Source: Botryobacter ruber
GTDB lineage: Bacteria; Bacteroidota; Bacteroidia; Cytophagales; Hymenobacteraceae
Length of the DNA stretch: 64,000 nt
Direction of reading: 5' to 3'
Assembly (NCBI RefSeq): GCF_003347595.2
Contig: NZ_QCZK02000051.1
Location: 62,001 to 126,000, forward strand
Below are positions 969 through 56,039 of the stretch, in pieces. Numbering within the stretch: the stretch's first letter is position 1; each line of letters starts with the position of its first letter. A program made the translations under genes and the position numbers. The notes under the pieces were generated by a model. That model did no database searches. It worked only from the letters and a program-made list of their open reading frames with translations, and had not been told where the DNA came from.

Positions 969-1066
969 TAGAGTTAGAGAGTTTGGGAGTTTGGGAGTTT
1001 GGGAGTTTAGGAGTTAGAAAGGTAGAGAGTTTGAAATTGTAGAGACGAAATGCTCGCGTCTCCTGC
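969..1066. repeat. Composite repeat: family B array plus family C palindrome
   Basis: Positions 969-1036 hold tandem variants of GAGTTTGGGAGTTTGGGAGT-type sequence (family B). Positions 1039-1066 hold a GTAGAGACG...CGTCTCCTGC palindrome (family C), near-identical to 34648-34675. The element fills the murQ to kinase gap, so it probably lies in the transcript. Confidence 0.8.
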
Positions 1067-18010: not shown

Positions 18011-18199
18011 AAGTTAGAAAGTTTGAGAGTTTAGGAGTTTAGGAGTTTTGTAGGGGTTGAATATTCTCAACTCTGTACAGGGCGTTATAAAACCTTTCTG
18101 CTCCTGGTAATCTTGTTCGGACTGAAAATCATATTCATCAATTAAATCATATGAATCAGCGGTTCAGACAAGGAGCAGAGGCTGTGGTGGCAGGTGCAG
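18011..18199. repeat. Composite repeat B-D-E-A
   Basis: Family B array 18011-18048, family D hairpin GTTGA..TCAAC at 18055-18071, diverged family E at 18110-18125, GGTTCAGACAA at 18160-18170, and a family A copy at 18171-18199. Same module order as at 34500 and 49761; the C palindrome is missing. Confidence 0.8.
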
Positions 18200-18217
18200 C
18201 ATAATTAACTAATCAGG

Positions 18218-34262: not shown

Positions 34263-34385
34263 CTAAGCCTTTGCTTCTTTCTTGGGTGCCTCTGCTGTAG
34301 CTTTTTTGGTTTTGTGCGGACGGCTGTTGCCGTAGCTGCCTTTTGCGATTTTACCTTTTTTGGTTTTTTTATCTCCTTTTCCCAT
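34263..34385 (-). CDS. 30S ribosomal protein bTHX
   Basis: A 40-residue, very basic protein (MGKGDKKTKKGKIAKGSYGN onward) that matches the Bacteroidota form of the small-subunit protein THX: the GKGD..TKKGKI..GSYG.SRP pattern is characteristic. It sits in a pocket of 16S rRNA and stabilises the head of the 30S subunit in relatives that have been studied. The gene is short, alone, and has its own hairpin terminator. Confidence 0.9.
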   Translation of the reverse strand: MGKGDKKTKKGKIAKGSYGNSRPHKTKKATAEAPKKEAKA

Positions 34386-34499
34386 AATGATTTGTGGTTA
34401 TATGTTAGCTATAAAAATCATCATACGGACAGATGCCTCCTGCGGGTACAGTTGCTGCGCTGCCACAGGACTAATATATAAAACCTATGTTAAGTTTAA

Positions 34500-34928
34500 A
34501 AGTTAGAAAGTTAGAAAGTTTGGGAGTTAGAGAGTTTGGGAGGTAGAGAGTTTGGGAGTTAGAGAGTTTAGGAGTTCAGGAGGTAGAAAGTTTGGGAGGT
34601 AGAGAGGTGTTTTTTTTGTAGTGGTTGAACATTTTCAACCCGTTCCTGTAGAGACGAGATGCTCGCGTCCCCTGCACTAACTATAAAAAACCTATCATGA
34701 AAATTCTAAAATTCTGTAAATCCTGATTCAGACAAAAATCCTGATAATTTCTCAATCTGCTTAATCCTGATTCAGACAAACAAATAATCACAAAAATCAA
34801 TTTAATCACACGAATCAGCGGTTCAGACAAAGGAGCAGAGGCAATGGAGGCAGGAGCAGAAATACTTTCTACCTCCTAAACTCTCTAACTCCCAAACTCT
34901 CTAACTTTCCAACTCCCAAACTCCCAAT
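34500..34928. repeat. Complete composite repeat element B-D-C-E-E-A-B(inverted)
   Basis: Modules in order: family B array 34500-34608 (units like GTTAGAGAGTTTGGGA); D hairpin GGTTGAA-CATT-TTCAACC at 34623-34640; C palindrome GTAGAGACGAGATGCTCGCG onward at 34648-34675; E copies ATCCTGATTCAGACAAA at 34720-34736 and 34764-34780 and a GGTTCAGACAA end at 34820-34830; A copy 34831-34859; then an inverted B array 34868-34928. The outer B arrays act as imperfect inverted terminal repeats of a roughly 430-bp unit. It has no open frame of note. Confidence 0.85.
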
Positions 34929-34940
34929 CTTATTAATTCG

Positions 34941-34948: not shown

Positions 34949-35018
34949 CACATAAATTTAACCTAATGAAAGCATTGTGCCGGCCTGTCTGACAGCCCCG
35001 ATACTTTGCTCCGTCTGT

Positions 35019-37832
35019 ATGGCAACTACTACTGAAACTATTCCTGAAAATAACCTGGACACGCTCGACCCACGCCAGCACATCATTATCAAAGGCGCGC
35101 GCGTGCACAACCTCAAGAACCTGAGCGTGGCGCTGCCCCGCAATAAGTTTATTGTGATCACCGGCCTCTCCGGTTCCGGCAAATCGTCGCTGGCCTTCGA
35201 TACGCTGTATGCCGAGGGGCAGCGGATGTACGTGGAGAGCCTTAGCTCCTACGCCCGCCAGTTCCTGGGCCGTATGGATAAGCCTGATGTCGATTATATT
35301 AAAGGTATCAGCCCGGCCATTGCGATTGAGCAGAAGGTGAGTGTAAAAAGCAACCGCTCCACCGTTGGCACCAGCACCGAAATTTACGATTACCTGAAAC
35401 TGCTCTACGCCCGCATCGGCAAAACTTATTCACCTGTTTCGGGCAACGTGGTGCAGAAGGATACGGTAGCCGACGTGGTCGATTATATTTTCAGCCTCGA
35501 AGACGAAGCCCGCATCATGATACTCGCGCCCCTGCAGCGCCAGCCGGACAGAACCCTGGAAAAGGAGCTGGACCTGCTGCTGCAGAAAGGCTACTCCCGT
35601 ATTTATGCCGATGGCCAGGTGTACTTTATCGAAGAACTGCTGAACCAGGAACAGGAGTTGAAAGGCATTATTTATATACTCGTAGACCGGGCCGTGATCT
35701 ACAAAAACGACGAAGACCTGCAGTTCCGCATTGCCGACTCCGTACAAACTGCTTTTTTCGAGGGCCATGGCGAGTGCCGGGTGCTGGCAGGCGAGGAGGA
35801 GCGGGTGTTCTCCGACCGGTTTGAGCTGGACGGGATGGTGTTTGAGGAGCCGACAGTTAACTTTTTCAGTTTTAACAACCCCTACGGCGCCTGCCAGACC
35901 TGCGAAGGCTTCGGCAGTGTGCTCGGCATCGACCCGGACCTGGTTATCCCGGACAAAAGCCTGACGGTGTACGAAGGCGCCATTGCTCCCTGGCGCACCG
36001 ATAAAATGAACGATTGGCTGCAGCCCCTGCTCAAAAACGGCATCCGCTTCGATTTTCCGATTCACCGCCCGTACAACGAGCTGTCGGCGGCGGAACAGGA
36101 ACTGCTCTGGACCGGGAACAAGTACTTCGAAGGGCTTGACAGTTTCTTTAAGCACATACAGTCGCAGTCGCACAAAATACAGTACCGCGTGCTGCTCTCG
36201 CGCTACCGTGGCCGCACCACCTGCCCCGACTGCAAAGGCTCGCGCCTGCGCAAAGATGCCAGCTACGTAAAAATAAACAACACCAGCATCACCGACCTGG
36301 TGCTGATGCCGGTAACGGAGGTGCTGAAATTCTTCAAGGAGCTGCAGCTAAACGAGTACGAGCAGAAAGTGGCGGAACGCCTGGCTCTTGAGGTGACCAA
36401 CCGCCTGGGCTACCTCAGCCGTGTTGGTCTGGGCTACCTTACCCTTAACCGCCTCTCCAACACCCTGTCGGGCGGCGAAAGCCAGCGCATTAACCTGGCT
36501 ACCTCGCTGGGCAGCGCCCTGGTAGGTTCCATGTACATCCTCGACGAGCCCAGCATCGGGCTGCACCCCCGCGACTCGGAGCAGCTCATTGGCGTGCTGC
36601 GCTCGCTGCAGCAGATTGGCAACACCGTGATTGTGGTGGAGCACGAGGAAGAGATGATGAAAGCCGCCGACCAGATCATCGACATCGGTCCTGAGGCGGG
36701 TTCAGGTGGTGGAAACCTGATGTTCCAGGGCACGATTGAAGAGCTGATGCAGCAGGCTGATACCTACACCGGCAAATACCTGTCCGGCAAACTGGAACTG
36801 CCCGTGCCACCACAGCGTCGGCAGTGGCGCAACGCCGTAGAGATCGTGGGCGCCCGCGAGAACAACCTGAAAAACCTGACCGTTAAATTTCCGCTGAACG
36901 TGATGACGGTGGTAACCGGCGTGAGTGGCTCCGGCAAATCTACCCTCATCAAAAAGATACTGTACCCGGCCCTGCAGAAGCTGCATGGCGGACACGCTGA
37001 GGCAACCGGTAAATTTGACAAGCTGCAGGGCGACTATGGTAAAGTAGGGCACGTGGAGTTTGTAGACCAGAACCCGATCGGCAAATCGTCGCGCTCCAAC
37101 CCGGTAACCTACGTAAAAGCCTACGACGCCATCCGCGCCCTGTATGCCGACCAGCCTCTGGCCAAGTCGCGTGGGTTTAAGCCGTCGCACTTTTCATTCA
37201 ACATAGAGGGCGGGCGTTGCGAGGTGTGCCAGGGCGAGGGGCAGGTGAAAATAGAGATGCAGTTTATGGCCGACATCTACCTGACCTGCGAGAGCTGTAA
37301 CGGCAAACGCTTTAAGCAGGACGTGCTCGACGTGAAGTACAAAGACCTGAGCATTTCCGATGTACTGGACCTGACCATTGCCGATAGCCTTGCCTTTTTT
37401 GCAGAGCAGCCTAAGATTGTAGAGAAGCTGAAGCCGCTCGACGATGTGGGGCTGGGCTATATCCACCTGGGGCAGTCGAGCAACACCTTATCGGGCGGGG
37501 AGGCGCAGCGCGTGAAGCTGGCATCGTTCCTGACCAAAGGCGCAACACCGCATAACGAGAACATCCTGTTCATTTTCGATGAACCCAGCACCGGTCTGCA
37601 CTTCCACGACATCAACAAGCTGCTCTCGGCCATGAATGCGCTTATCGACAACGGCAACACGGTTCTTATCATCGAGCACAACATGGACATCATCAAATCT
37701 GCCGACTGGATCATAGACCTTGGTCCGGAAGGAGGTATAAACGGTGGTCACCTGCTGTTTGAGGGAACGCCCGAACAAATGGCGCAACTGGAAAATAACC
37801 AGACAGCCCGTTTCCTGAAAGAGAAGCTGTAA
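35019..37832 (+). CDS. uvrA: Excinuclease ABC subunit UvrA
   Basis: A 937-residue damage-recognition ATPase of nucleotide excision repair. Two ABC domains each carry a Walker A (ITGLSGSGKSSLAFDTLY; VTGVSGSGKSTLIKKIL) and signature (LSGGESQRINLATSLG; LSGGEAQRVKLASFL). Zinc modules with CxxC pairs lie at CQTCEGFG...CPDCKGSRL and CEVCQGEGQ...CESCNGKRF. I chose ATG 35019, since the family begins close to it (IIIKGARVHNLKNLSV); the in-frame stretch upstream adds 14 residues that do not resemble UvrA. The promoter follows a composite repeat directly. Confidence 0.96.
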   Translation: MATTTETIPENNLDTLDPRQHIIIKGARVHNLKNLSVALPRNKFIVITGLSGSGKSSLAFDTLYAEGQRMYVESLSSYARQFLGRMDKPDVDYIKGISPAIAIEQKVSVKSNRSTVGTSTEIYDYLKLLYARIGKTYSPVSGNVVQKDTVADVVDYIFSLEDEARIMILAPLQRQPDRTLEKELDLLLQKGYSRIYADGQVYFIEELLNQEQELKGIIYILVDRAVIYKNDEDLQFRIADSVQTAFFEGHGECRVLAGEEERVFSDRFELDGMVFEEPTVNFFSFNNPYGACQTCEGFGSVLGIDPDLVIPDKSLTVYEGAIAPWRTDKMNDWLQPLLKNGIRFDFPIHRPYNELSAAEQELLWTGNKYFEGLDSFFKHIQSQSHKIQYRVLLSRYRGRTTCPDCKGSRLRKDASYVKINNTSITDLVLMPVTEVLKFFKELQLNEYEQKVAERLALEVTNRLGYLSRVGLGYLTLNRLSNTLSGGESQRINLATSLGSALVGSMYILDEPSIGLHPRDSEQLIGVLRSLQQIGNTVIVVEHEEEMMKAADQIIDIGPEAGSGGGNLMFQGTIEELMQQADTYTGKYLSGKLELPVPPQRRQWRNAVEIVGARENNLKNLTVKFPLNVMTVVTGVSGSGKSTLIKKILYPALQKLHGGHAEATGKFDKLQGDYGKVGHVEFVDQNPIGKSSRSNPVTYVKAYDAIRALYADQPLAKSRGFKPSHFSFNIEGGRCEVCQGEGQVKIEMQFMADIYLTCESCNGKRFKQDVLDVKYKDLSISDVLDLTIADSLAFFAEQPKIVEKLKPLDDVGLGYIHLGQSSNTLSGGEAQRVKLASFLTKGATPHNENILFIFDEPSTGLHFHDINKLLSAMNALIDNGNTVLIIEHNMDIIKSADWIIDLGPEGGINGGHLLFEGTPEQMAQLENNQTARFLKEKL

Positions 37833-49171: not shown

Positions 49172-49768
49172 GTGACGTTTGAAGAGATAAAAGATTTGCT
49201 GGTGCAGCAGTTCGGAGAAGAGGTTATTGTTTCTGATAACAAAGACCCGCAGCAGCCTTACCTGGTATTGCAGCCCGAGCGCCTGCCGGAGGTGTGCCTC
49301 CTGCTACACGACCACGAGCAAACCTATTTCGATTTCCTCTCCTGCCTCACCGGCATCGACAACGGACCGGCTGCCGGCACCATGGAAGTGGTCTATAACC
49401 TCTACTCCATTCCGTACGACCACCACCTCACGCTTAAGGTAATTGTGCCGCGTAACCAGGAGGAAGAGGCATTGCCGCAGGTGCCAACCGTCAGCCACAT
49501 CTGGCGCACCGCCGACTGGCACGAACGCGAAGCATTCGACCTGGTGGGCATCGGTTTTACTGGCCACCCCGACATGCGCCGCATCCTCTGCGCCGCCGAC
49601 TGGGAAGGCCACCCGCTCCGCAAGGACTACAAGCTGCAGGACTACTACCACGGCATCAAAGTACCCTTCGACAACCACAACGCATTCAACGGCTTTAAAG
49701 GCGAACCGCAGCAGCTAACCAGCACACCAACTCCTTTCTCCGACAAGCGGGAAAAGCCTGAAAGTTAG
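49172..49768 (+). CDS. nuoC: NADH-quinone oxidoreductase subunit C
   Basis: A 198-residue 30-kDa-type subunit of the peripheral arm. The signature HIWRTADWHEREAFDLVGIGF and HPDMRRILCAADWEGHPLRKDY is complete. The start is GTG at 49172. The last two codons, AGT and the TAG stop (49763-49768), lie in the first unit of a family B repeat array, so insertion of the repeat has probably changed the end of the protein. No nuoD follows directly as is usual; it lies 1.5 kb on. Confidence 0.94.
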   Translation: MTFEEIKDLLVQQFGEEVIVSDNKDPQQPYLVLQPERLPEVCLLLHDHEQTYFDFLSCLTGIDNGPAAGTMEVVYNLYSIPYDHHLTLKVIVPRNQEEEALPQVPTVSHIWRTADWHEREAFDLVGIGFTGHPDMRRILCAADWEGHPLRKDYKLQDYYHGIKVPFDNHNAFNGFKGEPQQLTSTPTPFSDKREKPES

Positions 49769-50035
49769 GAAGTTTGGGAGTTTAGGAGTTAGAGAGTTAG
49801 AGAGTTTAGGAGGTAGAAAGGTAATAAGGTCGGATTTGTAGGGGTTGAAGATTTTCAACCCTATCACAAACCACAGACAAACCCAATCCTGTTATTCCTT
49901 AAATCTTCTTAATCCTGTTCAGACAGAATAATTCTGTAAATCCTGCTTCAGACAAACATAAAATCACAAAAATCAATTTAATCAATGTAAATCAACGGTT
50001 CAGACAACCAGCAGAGGCAATGGTGGCAGGAGCAG
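49761..50035. repeat. Composite repeat element B-D-E-E-A between nuoC and a convergent gene
   Basis: Family B array 49761-49818, D hairpin GGGGTTGAAGATTTTCAACC (about 49841-49860), E copies at 49910-49925 and 49938-49955, a GGTTCAGACAA end at 49997-50007, and a family A copy at 50008-50035. Lacks the C palindrome and the far inverted B array present at 34500-34928. Confidence 0.85.
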
Positions 50036-50058
50036 AAGACAAAAACTGCTGATTTTTC

Positions 50059-55953: not shown

Positions 55954-56039
55954 GCAGCAGAGGCTGTGGTGGCAGCTGCAGAATAGTAAATAAACAGGCT
56001 GATAGTTCTGCTGCCCCTGCCACCACTGCCGCTGCTCCT
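55954..56039. repeat. Facing pair of family A repeats
   Basis: A plus copy at 55954-55981 (GGCTGTGGTGGCAGCTGCAG) and a minus copy at 56008-56039 form an imperfect hairpin between the DUF5686 and nnr genes. Confidence 0.8.

Follow-up and report, generated by a model that had tools for sequence, protein, structure and literature searches.

A lineage-specific composite intergenic repeat of Botryobacter ruber, read as joined ends of IVP-type and GxxExxY-type elements

The spacer between the genes for ribosomal protein THX and UvrA in Botryobacter ruber contains one copy of an ordered, dispersed repeat, specific to this lineage within the genomes searched, whose ends are inverted octamer arrays of the kind found around a 23S_rRNA_IVP gene and whose interior carries arms of the GxxExxY type. 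Our essential contention, held with modest confidence, is that the unit is a non-coding composite of the ends of IVP-type and GxxExxY-type elements together with two REP-like palindromes. The focal copy lies on contig C47, in the window (the whole stretch of 64,000 nucleotides that was analysed, C47:62001-126000 of a 5.84-Mb genome). An earlier note had described a composite element with inverted outer B arrays at 34500-34928; direct reading and repeat finding bear this out and add one further module, Z (Table 1). The partial forms it placed near 969-1066, 18011-18199 and 49761-50035 are likewise present by module annotation.

Table 1. The focal unit, its modules, its neighbouring genes and partial copies in the window (window positions)
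Feature	Position	Strand	Remarks
Focal composite unit	34493-34930		B, D, C, E, E, A, Z, inverted B; direct reading and repeat finding
B, tandem 8-bp array (AGTTTGGG / AGTTAGAG), left end	34493..34606	+	same kind as arms around the IVP gene at L292
D, GTAG and GGTTGAA..TTCAACC palindrome	34618..34641	+	fits GTAG-tagged REP
C, GTAG and AGACG..CGTC palindrome	34648..34671	+	fits GTAG-tagged REP
First E arm, AATC/ATTC words about 9 bp apart, ending in TTCAGACAAA	34693..34736	+	right arm, GxxExxY-type element
Second E arm, design as first	34737..34780	+	right arm, GxxExxY-type element
A arm (AATCACAAAAATCA...CGGTTCAGACAAA), E-arm design in other spelling	34786..34831	+	source element less certain
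Z, CAGCAGAGGCAATGGTGGCAGGAGCAGA repeat	34833..34860	+	independent high-copy family
Inverted B array, right end	34864..34930	-	pairs with 34493-34606
uvrA, downstream neighbour	34977..37832	+	TIGR00630
30S ribosomal protein THX gene, upstream neighbour	34263..34385	-	TIGR04560
Partial copy, B C	972..1062	+	
Partial copy, B D A Z	18012..18200	+	
Partial copy, B D e E A Z	49763..50036	+	e, second spelling of E

Anatomy, order and copy number

The longest arm pairs between the left and right B arrays of the focal copy are 78-88% complementary, and the right arm of its C module reads CGTCCC instead of CGTCTC. With up to 3 mismatches allowed, the B pattern has 32 matches in the window versus 0 in 100 shuffles, and ATCCTGATTCAGACAA has 5 versus a shuffle mean of 0.38. 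The site is a spacer between protein genes, not 23S rRNA, and it is divergent, since THX lies on the minus strand and uvrA on the plus strand, both confirmed by family search; the GTG start of uvrA is a mechanical call, with an ATG at about 35020.

A search of the 5.84-Mb genome scored 40 of 510 candidates, and modules were annotated over 1.264 Mb (21.6% of the genome; parts of contigs C17, C31, C47 and C51), which is a non-random sample. With overlaps removed, it contains 116 B, 43 D, 31 C, 51 E, 32 e, 35 A and 221 Z matches. These fall into 224 clusters, defined by gaps of at most 150 bp, of which 78 have at least two labels and 38 have at least three module types; proportional extrapolation suggests roughly 175 clusters of the latter kind in the whole genome. 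The reversed sequence gave no match to C, D, E, A or Z and three to e, and is uninformative as a control for B (84 raw overlapping matches). The sample's 63 B arrays have a period of 8. Of the 149 same-strand neighbours in the 38 clusters that differ in rank, 146 keep the order B-D-C-E-A-Z; 1000 order shuffles average 0.50 and never exceed 0.61. The longest form, B D C e E A Z E' D' B' at C51:242427-242941, has inverted outer modules on both ends. A single cluster of the 38 lies more than half within a mechanically called ORF; like a MITE, the repeat is short, non-coding, intergenic and present in many copies.

Where neighbouring B arrays are no more than 700 bp apart, 12 pairs are plus-minus, none is minus-plus and four are on the same strand. 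Minimal inverted B pairs were seen at C17:64155-64257, C51:94683-94885, C51:289047-289242 and C47:36522-36712; here 31-119 bp separates the arrays, with no further module, and one pair has a 7-bp array before it.

Intermodule distances correlate among neighbours (D-C, r 0.58, p 0.0005; E1-E2, 0.47, p 0.0025), more weakly for C-E1 (0.33, p 0.011) and A-Z (0.22, p 0.04), and the spacing of distant modules is uncorrelated (D-A, -0.07; D-Z, 0.08; E1-Z, -0.26; D-E1, 0.23, p 0.06), in 15 uncorrected tests on 14-24 copies each, with short modules and low power. This pattern favours block-wise copying. Copying of the unit as a whole was rejected, as the correlations fade along the unit, in the same uncorrected tests of low power. 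Several spacers share a D-to-E block of 197-214 bp, 92-95% identical as measured with a consensus built from such copies, and some copies are 95% identical to this copy-derived consensus over 199-214 bp, so that amplification is not entirely ancient.

Modules also occur alone: 130 of the 221 Z matches have no other module inside 200 bp. The earlier note had taken modules that were independent and in random order as a finding that would speak against a mobile unit; independent occurrence is real, while random order is contradicted by the 146 ordered neighbours among 149. Solitary modules are also what might be expected if the unit were the product of an insertion hotspot, with repeat families inserted separately after genes and site preferences making the order. 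The modules do have separate sources, B abuts stop codons, and the spacer between nfi and clpB receives different insertions in different species (these points are taken up below). We nevertheless regard this account as unlikely, because the conserved order and the identity of the D-to-E block suggest that blocks have been copied.

Sources of the modules

The 23S_rRNA_IVP protein is S23, a four-helix bundle protein (PF05635), and it is not known to be a transposase. Two such genes are present in this genome. That at L292 is bracketed by inverted B arrays, and the inverted B arrays of the composite match its arms; the other, at L291, has inverted arrays of a different word, farther out. In a first test of IVP flanks (400-bp flanks, stiffer scoring) the median score was 19 versus 18.5 for far flanks, with 4 of 32 loci above the far maximum. 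Reading the sequences revealed short gene-proximal arms, after which the flanks were cut to 150 bp and the scoring was loosened, and the resulting Pontibacter test is therefore a tuned one. Its 52 loci (30 best-per-genome, 2 own and 20 hand-picked, a non-random set among the matches listed) have a median of 15 versus 8 for far flanks (maximum 14), with 33 of 52 above that maximum and L291 below it at 150 bp. Matched flanks average 16.25, compared with a permuted mean of 9.45 and a permuted maximum of 11.13 (10,000 permutations). An untuned repeat with the same settings in other Bacteroidota placed 17 of 29 loci (L421 being excluded from 30) above the far maximum of 14, and control nfi flanks had a median of 9 and a maximum of 13 (n=30). 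Inverted arrays of 7-8-bp words bracket many IVP genes, in Pontibacter and in other Bacteroidota.

Of 48 IVP arms that score above 14 and are at least 20 bp long, 39 fit a period of 7 bp best and six a period of 8. Their words vary by locus and species (GACACAA, GACAAAG, GAGTTCT, GTATCAC, TAGATTT, GTTGTTC), both arms of one locus tend to share a word, as orthologues often do too, and a locus's own downstream arm is its top partner in 16 of the 52 cases. TAACTGA heptamers appear in the flanks of four of the 52 IVP loci (L344, L351, L376 and L388), a possible link to published arrays.

GxxExxY (TIGR04256 / PF13366) is a protein of the PD-(D/E)XK family, and D82, E92 and K94 (D..ExK) are conserved in 10 of 10 aligned members. 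All three PF13366 matches in this genome are GxxExxY proteins (TIGR04256). At one of these loci, L073, where the gene sits between arms, an arm is identical to the E consensus at 42 of 44 positions, and arms at L246, L154 and L148 are each identical at 41 of 44. The best matches of the A arm are 32/42 with L144 and 20/22 with L071; judged by its letters it is probably a GxxExxY-type arm, with a poor match to the known ones. The GxxExxY gene stands between the arms TTGTCTGAATCAGGATT... and ...AATCCTGATTCAGACAA, and the GAT words of the left arm are 8 or 9 bp apart in 90 of 116 intervals.

An outward pair of TGTCTGAA upstream and TTCAGACA downstream, with at most one mismatch, flanks 17 of 26 Pontibacter GxxExxY loci (26 of 30, L157-L160 being excluded); the other 9, including L071 of this genome, are without the pair at one mismatch. 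Among loci from named genomes (the best 80 of 578 confirmed), flank length allowed 78 to be used in the motif test, 76 in the permutation and 79 in the stop-codon flank score. The motif test, which was designed after the flanks had been read, found the pair outward at 38 of 78 loci and inward at 7 of 78, and outward at 3 of 63 far flanks. Alignment of the flanks gave a median of 37 near the gene (n=79, L240 being excluded from the 80 for its short flank) and 19 far from it (maximum 34, n=74); loci above this far maximum from outside the Bacteroidota include Methylomonas (L267), Anabaena (L248) and a Thiotrichaceae MAG (L251). Because different loci have similar arms, flanks paired across loci already reach a median of 27, and the 99th percentile of these mismatched pairs is surpassed at 16 of 79 loci. 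With gene ends set to the stop codon, 32 of 79 lie above the far maximum of 35. Matched flanks have a mean of 36.7 versus a permuted maximum of 30.2 (10,000 permutations, n=76), and in 14 of 76 loci no other downstream flank is a better partner than the locus's own. Roughly half of the GxxExxY genes examined, from several phyla, have arms of this type beside them. In the text available from the literature searched, GxxExxY is rarely named and receives passing mention.

E and, less clearly, A share the arm design of the GxxExxY family, whereas the composite is without such a gene and carries its arms in tandem on the same strand, which sets it apart from a GxxExxY element even as its E arms match the type. 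No remnant of an IVP or GxxExxY gene was found within the composites of the sample, and a decayed gene of either family was rejected as their identity; the absence of an IVP remnant is why we do not file the composite as an intervening sequence (IVS). Elsewhere, an IVP-like match (E 0.002) lies in the window, overlapping a long ORF on the opposite strand, and a GxxExxY-like match (E 0.36) on C31.

The spacer between nfi and clpB offers a case of presence and absence. In 7 of the 30 nfi loci fetched it measures 664-717 bp and holds a GxxExxY gene with its arms; in genome G046 it is 140 bp long with neither gene nor arms, and in G049 it has an arm-only form, a search of that genome for PF13366 giving no match. 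In six of the seven filled cases nfi ends on a TGA that belongs to the arm. In Pontibacter (L313-L342) this spacer is an insertion hotspot whose content varies by species: it may be short, or contain a REP-like palindrome, a GxxExxY element, arms only, a transposase-like gene with palindromes, or CCCC-rich repeats, and at some of the 30 loci clpB was not found beside nfi. Inverted CCCC/GGGG-rich repeats, known from the vicinity of DUF559 genes, form another family, seen at L072 (beside a GxxExxY locus) and at L314 and L337 (nfi-clpB spacer).

The RAYT family is linked with GTAG-tagged REP palindromes, and the transposase search around the modules covered this family, with loci fetched from a larger set of matches. 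Neither C nor D was found within about 1.5 kb on each side of 32 RAYT-like PF01797 genes (3 own, 29 from the genus), and RAYT was accordingly rejected as their source; the RAYT locus L119 carries another GTAG palindrome. The three Y1 transposase (RAYT-like) genes of this genome (L102, L103 and L104) lie beside palindromes unlike D and C, and one of them has an internal stop. What D and C have in common with the GTAG REP/RAYT system is the GTAG beside a palindrome, given in the accessible part of the source as the mark of one REP superfamily (PMC3733652); what separates them is their absence from the 32 RAYT-like loci. Z, finally, is a separate dispersed repeat and the commonest module, its 221 copies in 1.264 Mb (up to 6 mismatches) including one at 55955-56037 of the window as well as that in the focal unit, and Z copies close to each other form plus-minus inverted pairs in 14 of 23 cases.

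Lineage specificity and gene context

The composite is lineage-specific within the genomes searched. The genus was taken to be Pontibacter since protein stretches at GxxExxY loci of its members agree with those of named Pontibacter records (L146 of G042 with L227, P. virosus; L141 of G052 with L223, an uncultured Pontibacter). A 276-bp core consensus that omits the B arrays reaches 351 bits here, and none of the matches listed from 49 other Pontibacter genomes exceeds 80.6 bits, with up to 15 candidates scored per genome (up to 17 in the first search of relatives). At E 0.001 some match exists in 47 of the 49; among those listed, all overlap the E arm (query about 156-202) and the longest covers 106 query bases at 75%, and all long core matches listed come from this one genome of the 50. 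The whole focal unit as query gave matches in 24 of 24 same-genus genomes, nearly all of them, among those listed, B arrays.

A blastn comparison of the focal unit with the uvrA loci of 29 relatives gave no match at E 0.01. Upstream of uvrA, letters of the TTCAGACA type occur in one relative and of the GGGTTGAA type in one, and GTCTGAA is present in two within a longer uvrA stretch; the THX motif was found upstream in one of the 29, and the upstream neighbour may be a different gene in relatives. The earlier note had also named, as an outcome that would refute it, the same element in all syntenic spacers of relatives, which is not so. Adjacent gene pairs held in common with G021 (40) and G062 (34) include one with a composite, where the gap is 416 bp in this genome versus 148 bp, with no module motif, in G021; this comparison is weak, since just the one shared pair bears a composite.

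These results bear on the conventional MITE, that is, one non-autonomous transposon moved in trans by the transposase of an insertion sequence and then decayed. Inverted ends, an intergenic position, many copies and the absence of the long version from the other Pontibacter genomes, among the matches listed, are all features that such an element would have. Its ends, however, would here be tandem arrays of variable length, copy-to-copy distances correlate for neighbouring modules alone, and modules also stand solitary. No target-site duplication was seen; the closest relatives found are 83% identical in uvrA, and their spacers do not align with the focal one. We therefore think a MITE in this sense improbable. 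The earlier description of the unit as MITE-like and mobile survives in part: it is dispersed, non-coding, ordered, enclosed by inverted arrays and lineage-specific as tested (351 versus at most 80.6 bits among the matches listed; 29 uvrA loci), while a strict MITE is poorly supported, given the tandem-array ends, the solitary modules and the block-wise spacing.

As RNA, the focal unit is predicted to fold with a minimum free energy of -155 versus -102.5 for shuffles (z -7.85), the B ends forming an outer stem, and in unshuffled predictions the B ends pair in seven of the eight composites that have B at both ends, the four minimal B pairs being excluded. Rfam gave no match to the composite up to E 1, and a known RNA family was rejected on this ground. 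By mechanical gene calls, 24 copies have a stop codon on the side of B, and in 18 of them B begins no more than 15 bp from it. In 13 of 37 composites the left side faces a gene start, at a median distance of 263 bp; among the 37, 11 are flanked by gene ends on both sides and three by gene starts on both sides. The stop-side copies would fit an IVS-like shell that is tolerated directly behind a gene. The focal copy is not placed behind a stop codon, and its position in the divergent THX/uvrA spacer makes such an RNA role unlikely there.

The strong predicted fold and the location beside stop codons could also be read as marks of a conserved functional 3' end, a terminator or mRNA-stability hairpin under selection. 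We hold this to be very improbable: the 29 uvrA loci of relatives gave no match, partial forms are frequent, copies lie between two gene ends (11/37) or two starts (3/37), and Rfam is without a match up to E 1.

A model for the composite and its relation to known systems

In proposing how the composite arose, we start from an outer shell that would derive from the inverted octamer arrays found around 23S_rRNA_IVP genes and an interior that would derive from right arms (E, probably A) of GxxExxY elements. The product may then have spread without a gene, and by blocks, D-C-E-E and A-Z appearing to travel apart. Copying could have taken place at the B arrays through recombination, through IVP or GxxExxY proteins acting in trans, or through both. 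In copies just past a stop codon the shell might form a long hairpin in the transcript, like the IVS of 23S rRNA, so that insertion would cost the neighbouring gene little.

A close analogue is the IVS of Coxiella, which, in the part of the source available, comprises an S23p gene, an inverted-repeat stem and tandem heptamers (GACAGAT) in 428 nt, and is cleaved by RNase III in vitro (PMC4990558). From what that source describes, the likeness lies in an IVP-family gene between stem-forming inverted ends and in size, 428 nt against about 440 bp here; the composite differs in occupying protein-gene spacers and in having arms that are 7-8-bp arrays, with no gene in the window unit. Of the features that define an IVS it thus has inverted ends that form a stem, in the predicted fold alone, and it has neither an IVP gene inside nor a location in 23S rRNA. 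The BrickBuilt MITE of Porphyromonas gingivalis, with 23-nt units inside IS5-like ends and 4-bp duplications according to the accessible text (PMC4596501), likewise lies between genes in a member of the Bacteroidota, contains tandem repeats and is predicted to form long stem loops, whereas here the 8-bp arrays themselves form the ends. A third point of comparison is the TAACTGA heptamers of Beggiatoaceae, Cyanobacteria and Bacteroidetes, which, in the portion of the paper available, are mostly direct arrays with a suggested regulatory role (PMC4679880), and which resemble the present arrays as intergenic 7-bp tandem arrays near gene starts. The words 'S23', 'intervening', 'GxxExxY' and 'helix bundle' have no occurrence in the main text of that paper, as available (PMC4679880), and titles and the beginnings of abstracts in the literature searched, a scope outside of which subscription papers lie, hold no description of arms as found here.

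The composite suggests that there is a class of small genetic parasites that has been little described. We would tentatively, and with rather less confidence than we attach to the composite itself, suggest that this class is a broad one: tiny elements in which an IVP or GxxExxY gene lies within inverted arrays of 7-9-bp words, the spelling of the two arms changing together, which occur between genes as the IVS does in rRNA, spawn gene-less copies and fuse into composites, many of the published intergenic heptamer repeats being their footprints. If so, GxxExxY and IVP/S23, two abundant families of unknown role, would gain a shared architecture, that of a gene between paired short-word arrays, and an origin would be offered for intergenic tandem arrays that have so far been read as regulatory. 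The solo ends of such elements, moreover, would be able to fuse and then to multiply within one lineage as a single intergenic repeat.
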